DNA of 64,000 bases, taken from contig JAFDVY010000005.1 in assembly GCA_018268785.1 (NCBI GenBank), positions 1 through 64,000 of the forward strand, written 5' to 3'. Numbering within the stretch: the stretch's first letter is position 1; each line of letters opens with the position of its first letter. Below, one piece after another: positions 2,521 to 11,749 of this stretch. This DNA comes from Acidobacteriota bacterium. Lineage in GTDB: Bacteria > Acidobacteriota > Terriglobia > Acidiferrales > UBA7541. Both the position numbers and the translations under genes were made by a program. Under the pieces are notes generated by a model, which did not search any database, was not told where the DNA came from, and saw only the letters and a list, made by a program, of their open reading frames with translations.

Positions 2521-3259
2521 AGAAAACCGAACGATTTTGCACGCGTATCTCGATGGCGAGCTGGATGCTCCTCGCTCCGCCGAATTTGAAAAACATTTGG
2601 AAAACTGCGCGGCCTGCGTTCGCGCGCTGGAAGCGCAGGAAACGCTTCGATCGAAAATTCGGCATGCGGATTTGTACGAACCGTTGCCAAACGATCTGGA
2701 AAGCAAGATTCGGCGCCAGTTGCGAGAGGCTTCTGCGCCGGTTCCAAAGCGTTTTGTTTGGCAATGGCTCGCGGCAGCGGCAGCGGTTCTTTTCTTCGCC
2801 GGAATTTCCTGGAGATATTTGCCCAAATTTGGCGCCGACTCCGGCCTTTCCGCATCGGCGTTCGCATCTGAAATCGTGGACGCGCATATCCGCGCGCTCC
2901 AGCCGGGCCACTTGACCGATGTTGCATCGACGGATCAGCACACGGTCAAGCCGTGGTTCGACGGAAGAATAGCTTTCGCTCCGCCCGTCAAAGATTTTGC
3001 CGAGGAAGGTTTCCCCCTGATTGGCGGAAGGCTCGACGTCCTGCAAGGGGAAAACGTGGCTGCGCTTGTCTACGGCCGCCGCAAGCATTTCATCAACGTT
3101 TTCGTCTGGCCGGAACGCGCGGGCGAGGCCGAGCAATACACCGGATCAAAAAACGGCTACAACTGGATCTCCTGGAAGCAGGGCGAACTGCGCTTGTGCG
3201 CCGTTTCGGACACGAATCGCGACGATCTCAACGCGTTAAAGGATTTGATCAGCCGCTAA
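2510..3259 (+). CDS. Membrane anti-sigma factor with zinc-finger (ZAS/zf-HC2) domain
   Basis: A 249-residue protein starting at a GTG inside the end of the sigma gene, preceded by AGGAGG-like bases near 2498. The N-terminus has the anti-sigma zinc motif: C3, then H29-x3-C33-x2-C36. A transmembrane segment follows at about residues 85-103 (WQWLAAAAAVLFFAGISW) and a periplasmic domain of about 145 residues completes it. It should hold the upstream ECF factor at the membrane and release it on an envelope signal. The periplasmic domain carries no signature from which the signal could be read. Confidence 0.88.
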   Translation: MTCEENRTILHAYLDGELDAPRSAEFEKHLENCAACVRALEAQETLRSKIRHADLYEPLPNDLESKIRRQLREASAPVPKRFVWQWLAAAAAVLFFAGISWRYLPKFGADSGLSASAFASEIVDAHIRALQPGHLTDVASTDQHTVKPWFDGRIAFAPPVKDFAEEGFPLIGGRLDVLQGENVAALVYGRRKHFINVFVWPERAGEAEQYTGSKNGYNWISWKQGELRLCAVSDTNRDDLNALKDLISR

Positions 3260-3672
3260 TTTTTCGAAGCCGGTTTGCTAACGGAAGAGGGCATTTGCTT
3301 CGGCATTTCTTTTGCGTAAATCAGGCGCAAGATGATTTCGCTGGTGTGCCCCGACTGCACCTGAAAATTTTTTTGCCACTCCGAGAATATTCCCTTCGCG
3401 GATGCTCGCAGGTCATAGTTATCCGTATGCAATTTTGTAATCGTGAAACGGCCCCTCGCGTCCGCATGGACCACATGAGGAGCGATCCCGCTCGACGATT
3501 GATAGGTAATCACCGCGTGAGGCGCTGGTTTGTCGTTTGGTCCAAGCACCGTTCCCGAAATGATTCCGCTCGGAGCGCCTTTGCCGCGCTTTACCACAAC
3601 GTTTTGACCCGCCCATGCGGTCGTTCCCAGGGCCGCTGACAAGATCAGTAGGATCGCGATTTGTCGCTTCAT
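3256..3672 (-). CDS. Secreted protein with carboxypeptidase-regulatory-like (Ig-like) domain
   Basis: A 138-residue protein with a clear signal peptide (about residues 1-21, ending TAWAG). The rest is one beta-sandwich with the pattern GIISGTVLGPNDKPAPHAVI ... GRFTITKLHTDNYDLRASA, as in carboxypeptidase regulatory-like domains. Such single-domain secreted proteins are abundant in Acidobacteriota and are thought to bind ligands or proteins. It overlaps the anti-sigma gene tail to tail by 4 bases. No catalytic residues are visible. Confidence 0.75.
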   Translation of the reverse strand: MKRQIAILLILSAALGTTAWAGQNVVVKRGKGAPSGIISGTVLGPNDKPAPHAVITYQSSSGIAPHVVHADARGRFTITKLHTDNYDLRASAKGIFSEWQKNFQVQSGHTSEIILRLIYAKEMPKQMPSSVSKPASKN

Positions 3673-3922
3673 CTCCGTCTCCCGCTTCAGCCTCAGTGTA
3701 AGTCTAGTGGCTCGATCCCGCCGCAGAGAGGAACGTTTTGTGTCGCAGGAGCAACCTGCCTCTTGGAGCAGGTCGGTTCCACCCTTGCACGAAGCCGCGC
3801 CGATGAAGCGACTCTCCCACGTTGCGCGGCCCCGTGCCTTGCGCTTGTCTTGTTTTGAAACGATTAGACGCCGCGCTTGCGGTTCGTGTGCCCGCGCCAG
3901 GCAGCCTTCCGCGCCCGCGCCG

Positions 3923-4600
3923 TCAGACTGCCGCCTTCGGAGTGAGCGCTCTTGCAGCTCGGAAGATCAGCAAATGGCTCAGCCACGCCACTTGCACCAG
4001 GTATGTTGGCAACCAAATGTATGGAAAATAGGTCACAAACATGTTCGCTGGCTCACTGTGAAAATGTCGCAGCGGCGTCGGCATGGAAAGCGCGGCCACA
4101 ATCGTCACGTTCAACAGCAGCGCCAGTCCAATCGTGTTCCAAGCGTAGATCAGCCACTTCGGCGCTTTGTTTTTCGCTACGAGCCAGGCCATCGGCAGCG
4201 CCGTCAACCCAGTAAACACATCCCAGTTGCGTCCTTCGAACGTCATCTGCACCGGAACAAATCCGGCACGGTGCCCTAGATATAGAAAAATTTCCACCGC
4301 CACGCGAAATACTTGAAAGCCAATCAACCAGGCAAGACCGGGAGTCTCGATCAGCTTCGCCGCAGCCGAAAACTTGCTTCCAAAATAAACTCCCACAAAC
4401 GACAGCACCACCAGCAGCATGATCCGCGGCGGGCGCTGGCTGAAATCGTGCAGCATAGGCGTAAGGCTTAGCACGCCCGTCACCGCCAGCCACAAGAACA
4501 GCGCGCTCCCCAACTGCTTGCTGCGCCGCGTCAGCTCTCCCTGCACCGCGCCCACAATCAGCGAAAACAAAATCGCCAAATATACTGGCCCTGGATTCAT
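3923..4600 (-). CDS. Conserved hypothetical integral membrane protein (6-7 helices)
   Basis: A 225-residue, strongly hydrophobic protein with about six or seven predicted membrane helices, from NPGPVYLAILFSLIVGAV to LPTYLVQVAWLSHLLIF. I do not recognise a family motif. It starts only about 75 bases from the divergent aspartyl-protease-like gene. The 250 bases between it and the gene at 3672 hold no credible gene. Function unknown. Confidence 0.65.
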   Translation of the reverse strand: MNPGPVYLAILFSLIVGAVQGELTRRSKQLGSALFLWLAVTGVLSLTPMLHDFSQRPPRIMLLVVLSFVGVYFGSKFSAAAKLIETPGLAWLIGFQVFRVAVEIFLYLGHRAGFVPVQMTFEGRNWDVFTGLTALPMAWLVAKNKAPKWLIYAWNTIGLALLLNVTIVAALSMPTPLRHFHSEPANMFVTYFPYIWLPTYLVQVAWLSHLLIFRAARALTPKAAV

Positions 4601-4676
4601 GGACCGGCATTATCGCCCACTCTCGTACTTCAGGCCACGACCTATAACCCGCCGCTCGCTCGTGCATCAAACCGCC

Positions 4677-5561
4677 ATGATTCGCCGGTGTCCCTCGAAC
4701 GCCGCCATCTTCTTTCTTTGCCTGCTCGGTTTTTCTTTTCCCTCTGTCGCCCAAGAGCAGCCGGCATCTTCTGAAATTCCCATCGAACGCTGCGACGTCC
4801 TTCCCGTCGTTCCGGTGCGCATCGACGGCGCGGAAATGCGCTTTCTCCTCGACACAGCGGCGACCACTGTCCTCAACCTGAAAACATTCTCCTCAGGCCG
4901 CTCCAAACAAATTCAAATCTCCTCCTGGACCGGCACAGCCGCCACCAGCGCCCGCGAAGTTTCTCTTCCTGAACTTGTCTTGGGCGAACACAAACTCCTC
5001 AATCTGAAACTCCCGGCAATTGACCTGAGCCCCATCGGCAACGCCTGCGGCGGCAAGATTGACGGCATCCTCGGCGTGGATCTTCTCGACCAAATGGGAG
5101 TCACCATCGATCTCAAGCGCCGCATCGCTACATTTGCTCCGATGCCGCATGATGCCGTGACTGTCTACAGCCAAATGGAAAGATCGATGCACCTCTGCAT
5201 CACAGCGTTCAACAAGGGTGACGCGTCAACGCTGGAACAGTGCTTTGATCCGGAAATTGTGCTCTATGCGCCCCATGGTGAATTTCAGGGCCGGTCGCAG
5301 GTCATGAAATATTTGAAGGAGCGGTACCTGCAATATGCCCCAAAGCTCTCTTACGTGATGAAGCTTCGCGATGTAAAACTCTATGGCGACGCCCTGTGGT
5401 ATTCCTACGACTACACTCTGGACTCACCCAGGGAACACCTCGCCGGCCACGGGATGTCCATGTGCCGCAAGGATGGCGATCATTGGCGCATCCTGAATCT
5501 GCACAACTCGTTGCGCGATCCTGCCGCTATGGCAAAGGCGGAATCTCCAGCTTACCAATAG
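4677..5561 (+). CDS. Secreted retropepsin-like aspartyl protease fused to an NTF2/SnoaL-like domain
   Basis: A 294-residue protein with a signal peptide (residues 1-25, ending PSVAQ). Residues 45-155 look like half of a retropepsin: FLLDTAATTVLNL carries D59-T60-A61 in place of the usual DTG, and IDGILGVDLL (128-137) is the second conserved segment. Residues 160-285 look like a SnoaL/NTF2-like cone domain of the kind found in ketosteroid isomerase homologues. The DTA triad still holds the catalytic Asp; single-lobe retropepsins act as dimers. The ATG at 4677 starts the signal peptide; the open frame extends upstream but lacks one. The fusion is unusual. Confidence 0.72.
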   Translation: MIRRCPSNAAIFFLCLLGFSFPSVAQEQPASSEIPIERCDVLPVVPVRIDGAEMRFLLDTAATTVLNLKTFSSGRSKQIQISSWTGTAATSAREVSLPELVLGEHKLLNLKLPAIDLSPIGNACGGKIDGILGVDLLDQMGVTIDLKRRIATFAPMPHDAVTVYSQMERSMHLCITAFNKGDASTLEQCFDPEIVLYAPHGEFQGRSQVMKYLKERYLQYAPKLSYVMKLRDVKLYGDALWYSYDYTLDSPREHLAGHGMSMCRKDGDHWRILNLHNSLRDPAAMAKAESPAYQ

Positions 5562-5571
5562 GCTTCAACAG

Positions 5572-5600
5572 AAAAGGCGCGGTCGCCCGCGCCATTTCCA
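5572..5600. terminator. Hairpin between convergent genes
   Basis: GGCGCGG (5576-5582) and CCGCGCC (5587-5593) form a perfect 7-bp stem with a 4-base loop, preceded by AAAA and followed by ATTTCCAATTTT. It lies between two genes that end toward each other, so it could terminate both. Confidence 0.5.
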
Positions 5601-5621
5601 ATTTTCTGTGACTTCCGCGAA

Positions 5622-6470
5622 CTACTGCTTCGGCGCCGTCGCCGGTTTCGCGAACAGCTCATCCTCGATCGGATAATTATTCTTCACCGCCGTCAGCCGG
5701 ATGTTGATCACGGCGCCCTTTTCGGTGCGCTTCATGCGAAACGGAAACTTCATTCCATCCACTTCGCGGTAGTCTTCCATATCCAGCTTCACTACGTAGG
5801 GTCCTTCCGGGCTCATAAACGTGTCTTCGGTATGAATCTCGAGTCCCGTTTCCGTGTCGAAAAAGAGCTTCGCGGTTTCATTCTTCTGTGGCGAATACTC
5901 GATAACGTAGGCGTTGTGTGTGCCCGTCTTCTCCACGCCTAGAACCTTCCCTGTCGCCGCAATCAAAACCATGTTTGCTTGTTCGGAGAATTGCGAGCGC
6001 CGGATCCGGCTCGCCAGCGCCGCTCCGGAATATTCGTGATAGCCGCCGCGTGGATCCTCGATCCAGGCTGTTTTGCCGTCGCAAATGTCGCGCATCACGA
6101 TGTCCTGCTGCAGTTTCATCTTGTACATCGTCTTGTCCGGCGACTTTTGATAGATCTCCATCGCCACAAACGAGGAGGAATCCTCGCTCTGATACACACC
6201 TTTCATCAGGCGCGTATTCACGCTCTTCCAGGCCTCTTCGCCGCCCACCGCTTTCTGAGCGCGTTCCAGAATGTCTTTCAACGAAGGGAGTTCCGCGTCG
6301 GGCGTCGCGCCGGCCGCTTTCGCATCCGAGGGCGCCGCGGCAATCTTTTCCGAGACCATGGACGCGTTACTGGCGGGCGGCGTCTGACTCAACACGCCGC
6401 GCGGCATCAGCAGCAACACAATCACGGCGGCAGCAAGAATCGCCAGGGCGCGTTTTAGCTGGGTGTGCAT
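5622..6470 (-). CDS. Secreted LolA/outer-membrane-lipoprotein-sorting-like protein
   Basis: A 282-residue protein with a signal peptide (about residues 1-29). After a low-complexity Ala/Pro/Ser linker, residues 65-275 look like the beta-rich fold of LolA-like proteins (AQKAVGGEEAWKSVNT, DICDGKTAWIEDPRG, LFFDTETGLEIH, VDGMKFPFRMKR). Proteins of this shape are common in Acidobacteriota, and lipid or lipoprotein binding is proposed by analogy only. Convergent with the upstream aspartyl-protease fusion gene. Confidence 0.6.
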   Translation of the reverse strand: MHTQLKRALAILAAAVIVLLLMPRGVLSQTPPASNASMVSEKIAAAPSDAKAAGATPDAELPSLKDILERAQKAVGGEEAWKSVNTRLMKGVYQSEDSSSFVAMEIYQKSPDKTMYKMKLQQDIVMRDICDGKTAWIEDPRGGYHEYSGAALASRIRRSQFSEQANMVLIAATGKVLGVEKTGTHNAYVIEYSPQKNETAKLFFDTETGLEIHTEDTFMSPEGPYVVKLDMEDYREVDGMKFPFRMKRTEKGAVINIRLTAVKNNYPIEDELFAKPATAPKQ

Positions 6471-6747
6471 GGTACTTCCTCGCTTTCAGAACCGCTGGAC
6501 GTCTTTCAAGTGTGGCGCGCACTTGCGCTTCGCTCCATAGCGCCCGTGGCCAACTGTGTTTGGCGTGACACTGTACGAACGTTCAGGTAAGTATTTCTCG
6601 CCTGGTCGTGGCCGCAGCAAGAAAATTTGTCCACGTGGTAACCCGTTTCTCCCGCGCACACCTGTCCTTCGTTGTCTCTTGGGAAATTCCTTTTGATTGT
6701 TATCGTGTAAATCCGGAAAGCCAAAAAACTGATTCGCGGGAGTTTGA

Positions 6748-7662
6748 ATGAAGAAACCTCGTTTTCTTCTTTCTCTGGTCACGCAAGACAACGACTACCA
6801 GCTCGAGCAGGCCGCTGCCGCCAAGACTGCTGCCGTGGATTGCGGCGTGGACCTTGAAATTGTTTTCGCCGATGGCGATACCATCACGCAAAGCACGCAA
6901 ATCCTGCGCAACATTCAAGCGGAACCTCTCCTCCGTCCAGCTGCCGTCATCTTCGAACCCGTCGGCGGAACCTCCCTTCCGCAAGTTGCCCGCGCCGCTG
7001 TAGCCGCGGGCATCGGCTGGGGCGTCCTCAATTCCGATCCTTCTTACATTTCCGAATTGCGAAGCTCCGCAAAAGCGCCGCTTTTCTCGATCAGCTCTGA
7101 CCACAAGGAGATCGGTCGCATCCAGGGACATCAGTTTGCTGTTCTCTTACCGCGAGGCGGCACTCTGCTATACATCCAGGGGCCTTCGGACAATCTTGCC
7201 GCAAAAGATCGCACAGCCGGAATGCAGTCGACTTTGCCTTCCAACATTCACACCATCTTGCTGAAGGGCCAATGGACCGAGGAAAGCGCCATCAAGAGCG
7301 TGAACTCCTGGCTCAAACTTGCGGCTACCGGCAAAACGCGCGTGGACCTCGTAGGCGCGCAGAACGACGCCATGGCGCTTGCCGCCCGCAAAGTGCTGTC
7401 CACGGTATCGAATTTGGAGGAACGGGATCGCTGGCTCCGCGTTCCCTACACTGGAGTTGATGGCCAGCCGAAAACCGGCCAGGCTTGGGTGCGCGATGGA
7501 TCGCTTGCCGCGACTATTGTCGTTCCACCGAACTCCGACCAGGCCCTTCGTCTCATGGCCGGCGCGATACAAAACGGCAGCTCCATTCCAGACCACACGC
7601 ATACCGTTCCGCAGTCCATGCCTTCGATGGAAAAGCTGGCAGCTTTGAAAATTGCGAGCTGA
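6748..7662 (+). CDS. Type 1 periplasmic-binding-protein homologue without signal peptide
   Basis: A 304-residue protein with the two-lobed sugar-binding fold of ribose/galactose-binding proteins: ADGDTITQSTQILRNI and PAAVIFEPVGG in lobe 1, then LLYIQGPSDNLAAKDRTAGM and DLVGAQNDAMALAARKVL as in the RbsB family. It begins MKKPRFLLSLVTQDNDYQL, with no signal peptide, lipobox or DNA-binding head, and no ABC transporter gene is adjacent. A cytoplasmic ligand sensor or a scavenged solute-binding domain is possible. It stands alone, with 277 bases upstream and about 140 downstream. Confidence 0.75.
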   Translation: MKKPRFLLSLVTQDNDYQLEQAAAAKTAAVDCGVDLEIVFADGDTITQSTQILRNIQAEPLLRPAAVIFEPVGGTSLPQVARAAVAAGIGWGVLNSDPSYISELRSSAKAPLFSISSDHKEIGRIQGHQFAVLLPRGGTLLYIQGPSDNLAAKDRTAGMQSTLPSNIHTILLKGQWTEESAIKSVNSWLKLAATGKTRVDLVGAQNDAMALAARKVLSTVSNLEERDRWLRVPYTGVDGQPKTGQAWVRDGSLAATIVVPPNSDQALRLMAGAIQNGSSIPDHTHTVPQSMPSMEKLAALKIAS

Positions 7663-7804: not shown

Positions 7805-8398
7805 ATGTTTTGCAAAAATGCTCATGTCACGCGGATCCGGTTTACAGTCGCTCTTCTAGCTTGTTCCCTGCTTTCTCTTGCGGCGTCCGCTGCCGCGGCT
7901 CAAACTGCCTTTACTCTTGATGGAAAGCCGATCAATCCATTTCCTGGCCCCTCGGGAAAACCCATCGTGTTGATCTTCGTCCGTACGGATTGCCCAATTT
8001 CCAACCGCTATGCTCCCGTCCTTCGCGGCCTTTTCGATTCCAAATACCATCGGTTGGCAACGTTTTGGCTGGTCTATCCGGACAAGAAAACCGCGCCGCA
8101 GCAAATTCGCGCACATGTCCGCGAATTTCAGTTCGGGATCGATGCGCTTCGCGATCCGGATCATGTCCTCGTCAAACGCGCAGGCGCCACAATCACCCCG
8201 GAAGCGGCGGTGTTCGATTCCAGCGGCAACTTGCTCTACCGCGGCCGCATTGACAATCTTTACGTGGATGCGGGCCGCGCTCGCCCCGCCGCCACCACGC
8301 ACGAACTCAAGGACGCCATCGAATCCGCCATTTATGGAAAAACGCCAATGCCGGTGTCCGCGTCCGCAGTTGGCTGCTATATCTCCGACCTCGAATGA
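7805..8398 (+). CDS. Secreted thioredoxin-fold (redoxin-like) protein
   Basis: A 197-residue protein with a signal peptide (about residues 10-33, ending AAAAQ). The thioredoxin fold is indicated by PIVLIFVRTDCPISNRYAP, where C63 starts a C-x-x-S motif instead of C-x-x-C, and by the cis-Pro region ITPEAAVFDSSGNLLYRGRI. A second Cys (C190, AVGC) lies near the C-terminus and could pair with C63. It overlaps the downstream cytochrome/PHM-like gene by ATGA, so the two are coupled and probably act together in the periplasm, perhaps in thiol or copper delivery. Confidence 0.8.
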   Translation: MFCKNAHVTRIRFTVALLACSLLSLAASAAAAQTAFTLDGKPINPFPGPSGKPIVLIFVRTDCPISNRYAPVLRGLFDSKYHRLATFWLVYPDKKTAPQQIRAHVREFQFGIDALRDPDHVLVKRAGATITPEAAVFDSSGNLLYRGRIDNLYVDAGRARPAATTHELKDAIESAIYGKTPMPVSASAVGCYISDLE

Positions 8399-10203
8399 CT
8401 TCATTGTCCAAGCCAGCCGCAATCGCAAGCGCAGGAATATTTTTTTTCGCGCTGGTGGCTTCCCGAACATCCCGCACGCACGCGGCCGATGAACGTGGCG
8501 TTACATTCAATCGAGATCTCGCTCCAATCGTCTTCCGGACTTGCGCGCCATGCCATCATCCGGGCGAAGCCGGCCCGTTTTCTCTGCTCACCTACGGCGA
8601 CGTAAAGTCCCATGCCCGGCAGATTGCCGATGTCACACAAAAACGCATCATGCCTCCTTGGCTTCCCGAACCCGGCGAATGGAAATTCAACGACGATCTC
8701 CATCTCACGCCGGATGAGATCGCGCTCTTCGCAAAATGGGTGGATGCGGGTATGCCGGAAGGTGCGCCATCCGATCTTCCGCCCGCGCCTCGCTTCAATA
8801 GCGGCTGGCATCTCGGCGAACCCGATCTGATTCTTCATGCCGAATCTTTCTTTGAAGTTCCCGCCAGCGGCAGCGACGTTTATTGGAATTTTATTTTTCA
8901 CCCGCCACTCGAAAAAACGCGCTGGGTCAGGGCCATCGAAATTCGCCCGGGCGAACGCCGCCTTGTTCATCACGCAAATTTGATCGTGGACCGTACGCAA
9001 TCCGCGCGCCGCCAGGAAAAATTTCCAGGAAGCGGTTTCCCCGGAATGGAATTGCAAATCGAATCCGAAACCTTCGATCCCGACGGCCATTTTCTCTTCT
9101 GGAAGCCCGGCACAATTCCCGAACCCGAGCCGCACGATATGGCTCTGCGCCTCGACCCCGGCAACGACCTGGTTCTGAACACACACCTCCAGCCATCGGG
9201 CAAAGCGGAAAAAATCCAGCCTGCTATCGGAATCTACTTCACCGGCGAGCCCGCAACGAAATTCCCGCTGCTTCTCCAGCTCGAAAACGACCGCAAGCTC
9301 GACATTCCCGCCGGCGAAAAGCATTTCGTTGTAACGGATGAATTTGAATTCCCCGAACCGGTTTCGCTTCTGGCGATCTATCCTCACGCGCACTATTTGT
9401 GCCGCGACATGCTAGCGCAGGCCAAATTTCCCAGCGGCGAAACGAAAACATTGCTTCACATCTCGCGATGGGACCTGAATTGGCAGGCCGTCTTCACCTA
9501 CACGACGCCAATCGATTTGCCAGCCGGGACAAGAGTTTCCATGCGCTATAGCTACGACAATTCCGCAGACAATCCCGCAAATCCGAATTCTCCGCCGCAG
9601 CGCGTCCTCGCCGGAAACCGCGCCAGCGACGAAATGGCTCATCTCTGGCTGCAAGTTTTGCCCAAAGCAAACACGCACCAGGATCACGATCCGCGCCGTG
9701 TCTTGCAGGAAGCCATAGCCTGGCACCACGTCCAAAACAATCCGGGCGATTTCGAAGCTCACTACAATCTCGCCGCAATGCTGCAAGCGCGCGGCGAATC
9801 TTTGCAATCCATCGAACATTTCAGACTTGCTCTTGCCATCAAGCCCGGCGACGCTACCGTGGAAAACGCGCTCGGCGGCGCCTATTTCGCCGCTGGGAAT
9901 TTGCCGCAGGCCATCGCGCATCTCTCCGTGGCTGTTCGCGCCCGCCCTGATTATTTCGATTCGCAATACAATCTCGGCCTTGCGCTGGCAAACAGCGGCC
10001 AGTTTCCCCAAGCCATCGAACATCTCCGGGTTGCGGCAAATCTTCATCCGCAAGACGCGGATGCCGAAGCCAATCTCGGCGGAGCGCTTGCCGCAAACGG
10101 GGAAACAAAAGAAGCCATCGCACATTTGCGCCGCGCCATTGAACTCAATCCACAACACGCACTTGCCCGCGAAAACCTGGCTGCAATCACAAATCCACAA
10201 TAA
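8395..10203 (+). CDS. Secreted cytochrome c / PHM-like copper / TPR multidomain protein
   Basis: A 602-residue protein. A signal segment (residues 8-31) is followed by one haem motif C50-x2-C53-H54 with the distal region IMPPWLP (planctomycete-type cytochrome c). The middle domain matches the order of copper ligands in peptidylglycine alpha-hydroxylating monooxygenase: H192-H193, H264, H331-x-H333 and a Met (M383, or M414). The last 160 residues are three to four TPR repeats. This is consistent with an ascorbate-type copper monooxygenase fed by a haem domain, or with an electron-transfer scaffold. The substrate is unknown. Overlaps the redoxin gene by 4 bases. Confidence 0.8.
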   Translation: MTSLSKPAAIASAGIFFFALVASRTSRTHAADERGVTFNRDLAPIVFRTCAPCHHPGEAGPFSLLTYGDVKSHARQIADVTQKRIMPPWLPEPGEWKFNDDLHLTPDEIALFAKWVDAGMPEGAPSDLPPAPRFNSGWHLGEPDLILHAESFFEVPASGSDVYWNFIFHPPLEKTRWVRAIEIRPGERRLVHHANLIVDRTQSARRQEKFPGSGFPGMELQIESETFDPDGHFLFWKPGTIPEPEPHDMALRLDPGNDLVLNTHLQPSGKAEKIQPAIGIYFTGEPATKFPLLLQLENDRKLDIPAGEKHFVVTDEFEFPEPVSLLAIYPHAHYLCRDMLAQAKFPSGETKTLLHISRWDLNWQAVFTYTTPIDLPAGTRVSMRYSYDNSADNPANPNSPPQRVLAGNRASDEMAHLWLQVLPKANTHQDHDPRRVLQEAIAWHHVQNNPGDFEAHYNLAAMLQARGESLQSIEHFRLALAIKPGDATVENALGGAYFAAGNLPQAIAHLSVAVRARPDYFDSQYNLGLALANSGQFPQAIEHLRVAANLHPQDADAEANLGGALAANGETKEAIAHLRRAIELNPQHALARENLAAITNPQ

Positions 10204-10235
10204 GCGACACCGCCTCCCTTGCCTCGAAGATAGCT

Positions 10236-10259
10236 GTAGCGGCCGATCTTCAGATCGGC
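10236..10259 (+). repeat. GTAGCG-palindrome repeat
   Basis: GTAGCG (10236-10241) precedes a perfect palindrome, GCCGATCT-TC-AGATCGGC (10242-10259). It is one of several copies in the window that share the GTAGCG lead and a CT-nn-AG centre while the stem varies. It sits between the PHM-like gene and the C45 hydrolase gene and could also serve as a transcript-end hairpin. Confidence 0.7.
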
Positions 10260-10333
10260 GAATTCTGCAGCCGCCATTCGCTTGTAAATTCCGCGCCCAA
10301 GAGATAGCTTCGTTCTTCGACTTGGAGGAAGAA

Positions 10334-11749
10334 ATGCGCAGAGGAATAGCCCTTGCGGCAATCTTGATCGTGGTCGTTTTGTCCGGCGTTGCCGTCACCC
10401 ACGGAAGTGTTGCAAGTGCCGCGGACAATCGCTTGCAAGGCGCGTTTCGCAAACCCGCCGTCAGTGGCTGGACGTTTGTCCACGTGCAAGGGACGCCAGC
10501 GCAAATCGGATATCAACACGGCTATCTTCTTTCCGCTGAAATTCTCGATCTGAAAAATGCGCTGCAGCTCGAACTAACCCACGACAACGGAAAGGATTGG
10601 AACTTTTTCCGTGACGCCGCGAAAAACTCCATGTGGCCGCATATCTCCGGGGAATACCGCGAAGAGCTGCAGGGAATTGCGGATGGTTTAGACGCACACG
10701 GCGTGAACCTGGATTTGTGGGACGTGGTCGCAATGAACGCCGCGGAAGAGTGGAGCTATTACGTCGGTGAATGGAACAAGCAGCACCGGATCGCTTCGCC
10801 TTCGACTGTAGTCGCGCCCGATCATTGCAGCGCCTTTGTCGCCACGGGCAGCTACACGAAGGACGGAAAAATCGTCATCGCGCACAACGATTGGACGGGT
10901 TATCTCGACGGAGCGCGCTGGACCATCGTGCTCGATGTCGTTCCCGCAAAGGGCTATCGCTTTATCATGGATACTTTGCCGGGCTTCATTCACAGCGGCG
11001 ACGACTTCGCCATAAATTCCGCGGGAATCATCCTCACGGAAACCACCATCACTGGATTTTCCGGCTATGACTTTGGTGGCATTCCGGAATTTGTCCGTGC
11101 CCGCAAGGCGATGCAGTATTCCGCGTCCATCGATGAAGTGGCGAATCATTTCAAGGAAGGGAACAACGGCGGCTACGCCAACGACTGGCTCATCGGCGAC
11201 ACAAAGAAAAACGAAATCGCCAGCCTCGAACTCGGATTGAAAAACGTCACCCTCGAACGCAAAACCGACGGCTATTTTGCCGGATCGAATTTTCCCATCA
11301 ACCCGAAACTCGCGGCGGAAGAAACCAATTTCAATTTGAAAGATCCTTCCCTCAGCGCCAACGCGCGCCACAAGCGCTGGACACAACTGCTCGAAGCCAA
11401 CAAGGGAAAAATCGACGTCGCCCTGGCGCAGGAGTTTCTCGCCGATCACGTCGATTCCTTCTCTGGAAAAACCGAAGCCAGCGAACGCACCCTTTGCGGC
11501 CACGTGGAAGATTCGCCGCGCGGAATGGGCGCCTGGCAGCCACCCTACGGAACCGCGGGTGCCGTTCAAAATAAAGTTACGGATGCAAGCCTCGCAGCGA
11601 AATTATCGTTCACTGCGGCTGCGGGTCACGCGTGCGGCAAGGATTTTATCGCCGCAAAACACCTTGCCGCGCATCCCGAACTCTCCTGGCAAAAGCCGGA
11701 ACTCCGCGATATGAAGGCGTTTCCCTGGACGACCGTCGCCGCTCAGTAA
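10334..11749 (+). CDS. Secreted C45-type Ntn hydrolase / acyltransferase homologue
   Basis: A 471-residue protein with an N-terminal signal or anchor (residues 5-30). It matches the C45 / phospholipase-B-like Ntn fold: GTPAQIGYQHGYLLSAE near the start, then MNAAEEW, and DHCSAFVATG where C165 is the likely self-processing nucleophile, followed by IAHNDWTGY. Family members cleave or transfer acyl groups on amides such as penicillins or lipids. The ATG at 10334 has GGAGG six bases upstream; the longer open frame overlaps the previous gene and is spurious. It follows the PHM-like gene on the same strand across a palindrome. Confidence 0.8.
   Translation: MRRGIALAAILIVVVLSGVAVTHGSVASAADNRLQGAFRKPAVSGWTFVHVQGTPAQIGYQHGYLLSAEILDLKNALQLELTHDNGKDWNFFRDAAKNSMWPHISGEYREELQGIADGLDAHGVNLDLWDVVAMNAAEEWSYYVGEWNKQHRIASPSTVVAPDHCSAFVATGSYTKDGKIVIAHNDWTGYLDGARWTIVLDVVPAKGYRFIMDTLPGFIHSGDDFAINSAGIILTETTITGFSGYDFGGIPEFVRARKAMQYSASIDEVANHFKEGNNGGYANDWLIGDTKKNEIASLELGLKNVTLERKTDGYFAGSNFPINPKLAAEETNFNLKDPSLSANARHKRWTQLLEANKGKIDVALAQEFLADHVDSFSGKTEASERTLCGHVEDSPRGMGAWQPPYGTAGAVQNKVTDASLAAKLSFTAAAGHACGKDFIAAKHLAAHPELSWQKPELRDMKAFPWTTVAAQ

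Follow-up and report, generated by a model that had tools for sequence, protein, structure and literature searches.

We analysed a stretch of 64,000 nucleotides from an Acidobacteriota bacterium (contig JAFDVY010000005.1, hereafter the window), in which three genes, called A, B and C here, follow one another in this order on the + strand, as seen by open reading frame (ORF) calling and a check of the sequence. We consider it probable, if well short of certain, that A and B make up a coupled, exported two-protein unit, in which B would be a copper monooxygenase with the fold of PHM and DBH, fed with electrons by a cytochrome c domain fused to it, and A a thioredoxin-fold accessory protein with two cysteines, C being unrelated to both. 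An earlier note on this DNA had described a PHM-like copper site, a haem c motif and TPR repeats in B, together with a coupled redoxin, A; this description is borne out by conserved motifs, by a predicted fold which matches PHM and by the overlap of A with B. The features of the two genes are the following:

7805..8398, + strand: gene A, redoxin of the thioredoxin fold, 197 amino acids (aa), with a DCPISNRYAP motif and a C-terminal GC, probably exported (ORF, AlphaFold2 (AF2) model, structure and profile matches)
7991..7993, + strand: Cys63 of A, invariant (30/30 aligned rows, 34/34 linked A sequences)
8375..8377, + strand: Cys191 of A, close to the C terminus, invariant (30/30 aligned rows, 34/34 linked A sequences)
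8395..8398, + strand: 4-nt overlap, ATGA, of the A stop with the B start (sequence)
8395..10203, + strand: gene B, 602 aa, with a signal-like N terminus (judged by eye), a cytochrome c domain, a PHM/DBH-fold domain and TPR (ORF, Pfam, model, alignment)
8542..8556, + strand: haem c motif CAPCH of B, residues 50-54 (110/111 members, 1 gap)
8650..8652, + strand: Met86 of B, candidate axial haem ligand (110/111 members, 1 gap)
8968..8973, + strand: His192-His193 of B, predicted CuH ligands (108/111 and 109/111 members)
9184..9186, + strand: His264 of B, predicted CuH ligand (109/111 members; L079-DBH alignment)
9385..9393, + strand: His331-Ala-His333 of B, predicted CuM ligands (108/111 members each; L079-DBH alignment)
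9634..9636, + strand: Met414 of B, in a DEM motif, predicted CuM ligand (106/111 members, 2 of the other 5 being gaps; L079-DBH alignment)
9730..10188, + strand: C-terminal TPR repeats of B, about residues 446-598 (Pfam TPR_11, E 1.7e-20, and others)

Predicted fold and metal sites of gene B

The AF2 model of the cytochrome and PHM-like core of B covers 405 residues with a predicted local distance difference test (pLDDT) of 89.4. The top 31 Foldseek rows for this model are DBH and PHM chains, the first being human DBH (4zel; VIA-align Z 18.2), and the best VIA-align match is rat PHM (3mic), with Z 20.0, a root mean square deviation of 3.4 Å and 265 aligned residues over the model range 106-403. 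The lowest PHM row in this comparison has Z 16.7, while the first entry that is neither PHM nor DBH has Z 7.8. The two-domain PHM fold is thus recognized in the predicted model, and we concluded that B, as modelled, is a PHM/DBH-fold protein. The likeness to rat PHM (3mic, 1phm) extends over about 260 residues and to the HH, H, HxH and Met motifs, which we equated by motif. At the C-terminal end of B, many Pfam TPR models score above their cut-off, and NCBIfam recognizes the TPRs as well.

A link with DBH is also seen in the sequence of L079, another member of the family, which aligns with human DBH (4zel) at E 1.5e-7. The HYH histidine, the H-x-H pair and the methionine all fall in register in this alignment: VHYH faces VHYH at the His264 site, HMHLLGRK faces HTHLTGRK at the H-x-H pair and DEMC faces EEMC at the methionine. 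Furthermore, the Pfam model Cu2_monoox_C is matched above its cut-off in 12/119 sampled genomes, including the window's own genome, where the match is a paralogue on contig C199; all 20 loci fetched from this search also match the profile of B. This paralogue (L180:5674-7452), a second cytochrome-PHM gene, belongs to the outer clade of the family, carries the motifs HH, HY, HAH and DEM and is itself above the Cu2_monoox_C cut-off.

In front of the PHM-like part, B has the layout of a class I cytochrome c: C50-xx-C53-H54 and M86, with model helices 3-14, 32-37, 39-48 and 71-82 around them.

Conservation was followed in two sets of sequences. Relatives of B were picked by similarity to B, and the genome sample was the window's phylum; 60 further regions were chosen by hand, nearly all from the matches of the genome search with B, and are not a random draw. 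Of the 116 B-like ORFs found, five did not reach the required coverage, which leaves 111; neither L012 nor L034 is represented among these. The alignment of B cores holds 34/37 cores (L005, L008 and L022 were left out). In the window and its 38 relatives, the five predicted histidine ligands are present in 39/39 rows and the methionine in 37, the other 2 being gaps. Over the 111-member alignment, where single ligands are kept in the numbers listed above, the six of them are intact together in 106/111 members. The reading given in the earlier note would have fallen had the ligands varied within the family, and it withstood this check.

The losses are few and can be described one by one. L179_2719 (2719-4086) has lost all six copper ligands, L176_8279 (8279-9697) has lost the five histidines and has a gap in the methionine column, and L153_5233 (5233-7221) has lost four ligands (H192, H331, H333 and M414); the haem motif is kept in each of these three members. 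The methionine is the sole ligand lost in L159_5990, and in L022 the contig ends before the methionine position. That the losses are concentrated in few members is the pattern expected if the residues work as a set. Judging from their sequences, L176_8279 and L153_5233 are possible pseudo-enzymes.

Gene A and its linkage to gene B

The AF2 model of A has a pLDDT of 93, and its nearest solved structures are 3u5r, 2ywi, 2ywo and 2cvb, with Z 18.1-18.7 (18.7 for 3u5r), from which the thioredoxin fold is recognized. ResA (Z 14.5) and the peroxiredoxins and glutathione peroxidases (Z about 12) both rank below these thioredoxin-like proteins. The resemblance to the proteins of Thermus (2cvb), Geobacillus (2ywi) and Sinorhizobium (3u5r) runs over the whole length of the fold; the profile of A matches 2cvb at E 5e-22, and 2cvb also has the C-terminal GC. 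We know of no link of those thioredoxin-like proteins to copper monooxygenases; A, by contrast, is coupled to B. At the site where ResA and CcmG have CxxC, A has CPIS, and its second invariant cysteine comes 128 residues further on (alignment of 30/32 A sequences, L004 and L005 being left out). A hydrophobic stretch at the N terminus, recognized by eye, suggests that A is probably exported.

An A relative was found at B in 24/38 loci of the relatives picked by similarity to B; among these 38 loci, L034 begins within B and allows no judgement, and the A gene of L006 runs into the end of its contig. We then counted A as linked when it is fused to B or lies upstream of it on the same strand within 1.5 kb. 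The 111-member tree (a quick LG+G4 tree, in which 29/108 inner branches are open) contains a clade around B with support 98, which holds 69/71 members with a long C-terminal tail. A is linked in 35/72 members of this clade (in L003 and L006, which are among the 35, it is broken or cut) as against 0/39 members outside. When the relatives picked by similarity to B are left aside, the same count gives 11/35 in the clade and 0/39 outside.

The spacing of the two genes is also constrained. The 4-nt overlap of A stop and B start is possible in 26/33 separate linked pairs, and the B start is at most 20 nt from the A stop in 32/33 of them, the exception being L023 with 1256 nt. In L032, and again in L070/L155, A and B form a single gene with A at the front, and these two fusions are far apart on the tree. 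The overlap suggests that A and B are coupled in translation.

The linkage was approached from the side of A as well. Among 199 genomes, the window included, 17 A-type redoxins score above 160 bits, and 12 of them adjoin B or are fused to it, while none of the next 13 weaker redoxins is beside B. A better control is given by 16 weaker redoxin hits in genomes which do hold B: none of these is on a contig with B among the matches listed. The searches scored at most nine candidates per genome for B and at most 16 for A, and one gene is at times split over several match rows; copy numbers are therefore rough. The pairwise distances of A and of B are correlated over 34 pairs (Spearman 0.67, with 0/1000 permutations as high). 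Hence, as far as can be judged from sequences, A and B are a real unit.

Two arrangements outside the common pattern were noticed. At L141:5707-10486 and L144:5196-10012 the order is B-A-B, with one redoxin gene between two cytochrome-PHM genes of the same strand. In L192 and L193, an A-type redoxin without B within 1.5 kb is beside ORFs which look by eye like FG-GAP repeat proteins; both genomes hold B elsewhere.

Proposed mechanism and alternatives

The copper enzymes PHM and DBH, with which animals make hormones and noradrenaline, are textbook cases of dependence on ascorbate. In their chemistry, CuH hands an electron to the CuM site, where O2 is bound; hydrogen is abstracted there and the substrate hydroxylated. 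In a bacterium, where ascorbate is not expected, the fused haem would be a natural electron source for B. In the mechanism that we propose by analogy, the fused cytochrome c, which would draw on donors of the periplasm or of respiration and not on ascorbate, would deliver electrons to the predicted CuH site (HH, H); O2 would be activated at the predicted CuM site (HxH, Met) and used to hydroxylate a C-H bond in a substrate that is exported or periplasmic. The TPR tail may dock B to a partner or to the substrate. As to A, it would most likely load the metal sites of B or keep them reduced, whether by copper delivery or by acting on the haem cysteines; roles as a reductant or as a peroxidase are also possible. 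Export, copper binding and the path of the electrons are, like hydroxylation and the parts given to A and to the TPR tail, predictions.

Several observations weigh against this reading. Unlike the bacterial members of Cu2_monoox_C (PF03712), with which it shares the profile match common to all 20 fetched loci, B misses that model: the Pfam scan gave neither a Cu2_monooxygen nor a Cu2_monoox_C match for B at E 0.1, and a PDB search with the sequence of the B core or with its 34-row profile returned no PHM or DBH. The link of B to PHM and DBH therefore runs through structure and intermediate relatives. The cytochrome fold is weakly matched (Pfam Cytochrome_CBB3 at E 0.012, below the cut-off, and cytochrome c6 at E 0.72). 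On the side of A, B is missing from the 1.5 kb examined around 5/17 A-type redoxins, 4 of those 5 genomes having B elsewhere, and the control made with the 13 weaker redoxins is weak because the genomes of 12 of them show no match to B at all. The correlation between the A and B distances partly reflects shared species history. Moreover, 37/72 members of the B clade have no A upstream, which means that A is not obligatory for B; two of these (L141_5707 and L144_7868) have A just downstream. No replacement redoxin was seen by eye in 11 ORFs upstream of A-less members (8 beside members of the B clade, 3 outside it). Finally, since A lacks CxxC and the cysteines of the B core are the haem pair alone in 25/35 A-linked members, a thiol target of A is not evident. 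The same holds for the B cores of 31/38 A-less TPR members, where TPR stands in the family counts for a C-terminal tail of at least 100 residues, a rule of length and not a domain search.

Among the alternatives, we have first to consider that B uses the PHM fold and its copper for work other than hydroxylation, such as electron transfer, copper binding or sensing, or peroxide or NO chemistry, with the haem as a partner. In its favour, catalysis and substrate are themselves predictions, and L153_5233, L179_2719 and L176_8279, which have lost at least four copper ligands and yet keep the haem motif, indicate that the scaffold can serve without copper. The predicted substrate site also departs from that of PHM. 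Arg240 is, as we take it, the peptide-carboxylate anchor of PHM, and we assume that its position in B is two residues before the HxH pair; the residue there is Tyr329 in B, and the column has Tyr in 55/111 and Gln in 23/111 members instead of Arg, so that a PHM-like mode of peptide binding is not expected of B. Peptide amidation is accordingly not favoured. B further differs from PHM by an identity of about 17% and by its fused cytochrome c and TPR, and no PAL is among its Pfam matches; PHM is disulfide-bonded, unlike the many A-linked B cores whose only cysteines are those of the haem motif. We know of no haem c or redoxin partner for DBH. However, the six ligands are intact in nearly all members, and this exact two-site set is more than a protein for electron transport or storage alone would require. 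We hold this alternative to be unlikely.

A second alternative leaves B as in our preferred reading and makes A a peroxiredoxin, which would guard B against H2O2 from uncoupled copper chemistry. A does have a sub-threshold AhpC-TSA match (E 7e-5), and peroxiredoxins and glutathione peroxidases are among its structural matches, with the Z of about 12 given above, but its nearest structures are the thioredoxin-like 2cvb, 2ywi and 3u5r, with Z about 18. Besides, the peroxiredoxin motif, as we assume it, has a Thr three residues ahead of the peroxidatic Cys, and this position is not conserved in A, where many rows have R and others S, T, A, M or D. The chance that A is such a protein seems small.

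We give slightly less credence still to a module for copper homeostasis, in which A and B would bind and traffic periplasmic copper, A being a Sco-like chaperone. A has the thioredoxin fold and two invariant cysteines, and a histidine, residue 166 of the window's A, is common in it and near-constant in close relatives; but this histidine is missing in L060, L062, L065, L066 and L070. We had considered it as a Sco-type His and dropped it because of its absence from several distant relatives. The catalytic ligand set of DBH and PHM and a haem c domain would moreover be unexpected in a copper store, and a Pfam scan of 20 proteins from the neighbourhood or the family found no copper transporter.

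To return to the unit of A with a hydroxylating B, it can be extended to a wider proposal, which we regard as tentative and on the whole doubtful: the family would be a bacterial clade of PHM-fold hydroxylases which work without ascorbate, are connected by the fused cytochrome c to the electron chain of the periplasm and have a dedicated two-cysteine redoxin as maturase, and it would represent the bacterial counterpart, possibly the root, of animal PHM and DBH.

Gene C, spread of the family and neighbouring genes

Gene C follows B after a gap of 130 bp:

10334..11749, + strand: gene C, C45 / phospholipase B-like Ntn hydrolase, 471 aa, a neighbour probably outside the A-B unit (NCBIfam, Pfam)
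10826-10828, + strand: Cys165 of C, conserved (31/31 rows)

C scores 174 bits against NCBIfam C45_proenzyme (cut-off 85) and 51.7 bits against Pfam Phospholip_B (cut-off 27), and it matches PLBD2 at E 2e-5; it thus resembles by sequence the phospholipase B-like 1/2 and C45 Ntn hydrolases (3fgr, 3fbx, 4bwc), and Cys165 is its putative nucleophile. A three-gene module, in which B would hydroxylate a peptide or amide and C would hydrolyse the product, is suggested by the common strand and the short gap, in which no terminator- or promoter-like site is listed (the scan gave counts as in shuffled sequences and is hence uninformative), and by the presence of C downstream of B in L001, the closest relative, too; it is very improbable and already largely refuted by gene order, as L001 is the only case among the 28 relatives in which 1.8 kb or more could be examined beyond B. 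C relatives are present in 73/151 genomes, and a B core was found upstream of C in 0/28 assessable C loci. For the latter test, 29 C loci were fetched besides that of the window and 28 were judged, one starting at a contig end; the upstream span is about 1.5 kb, except in L113, where it is about 1.1 kb, so that a B further off would be missed, and B was detected in the window's own C locus (1.5 kb), which served as positive control. We therefore rejected C as a member of the module, and it is probably an unrelated neighbour of the A-B unit. Of the three genes which the earlier note proposed to look for together in relatives, only A and B are seen to stay so in many cases, and its reservation that the hydrolase may be unlinked is the part favoured by these data.

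The cytochrome-PHM family is present in 41/199 sampled genomes of the window's phylum, in some of them in several copies. The relatives found by similarity to B are all from the Acidobacteria group, the nearest being a 'gp2' isolate, and a plasmid collection searched with the B core and with the paralogue gave no match. The family includes a cluster of six cytochrome-PHM genes on one strand (L179:2719-16389, genome G009), and in L078 and L089 (genome G084) a member whose gene is open but for an in-frame TAG, the mark of either a pseudogene or a sequence error. The architecture, called uncommon in the earlier note, is indeed so in the papers searched, though not in the genomes. We found no description of a bacterial cytochrome-PHM protein in the open-licence literature, which is weak evidence of absence, and the table of a 2020 metalloproteome review has PHM and DBM, within that table, under eukaryotes only (PMC7435645). 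Pfam already groups some bacterial homologues. A bacterial family that combines the PHM/DBH ligands with a haem of its own would add to the copper proteins known from soil bacteria. The question of how electrons reach two distant coppers could then be studied in a simple system, and B would be a tractable protein for probing the substrate range of the PHM/DBH fold.

Other genes recur near some loci, namely outer-membrane barrels (24 loci in the clustering), ASPIC/UnbV (11) and GWxTD proteins (7). We considered them as a wider conserved neighbourhood and provisionally took them as background. Upstream of A in the window, the ORF 6748-7662 has a Peripla_BP_4 sugar-binding periplasmic domain (Pfam) and a start without an obvious signal peptide by eye, and in the ORF 4419-5561 a retropepsin-like aspartyl protease domain precedes a DUF4440/SnoaL-like one (Pfam).

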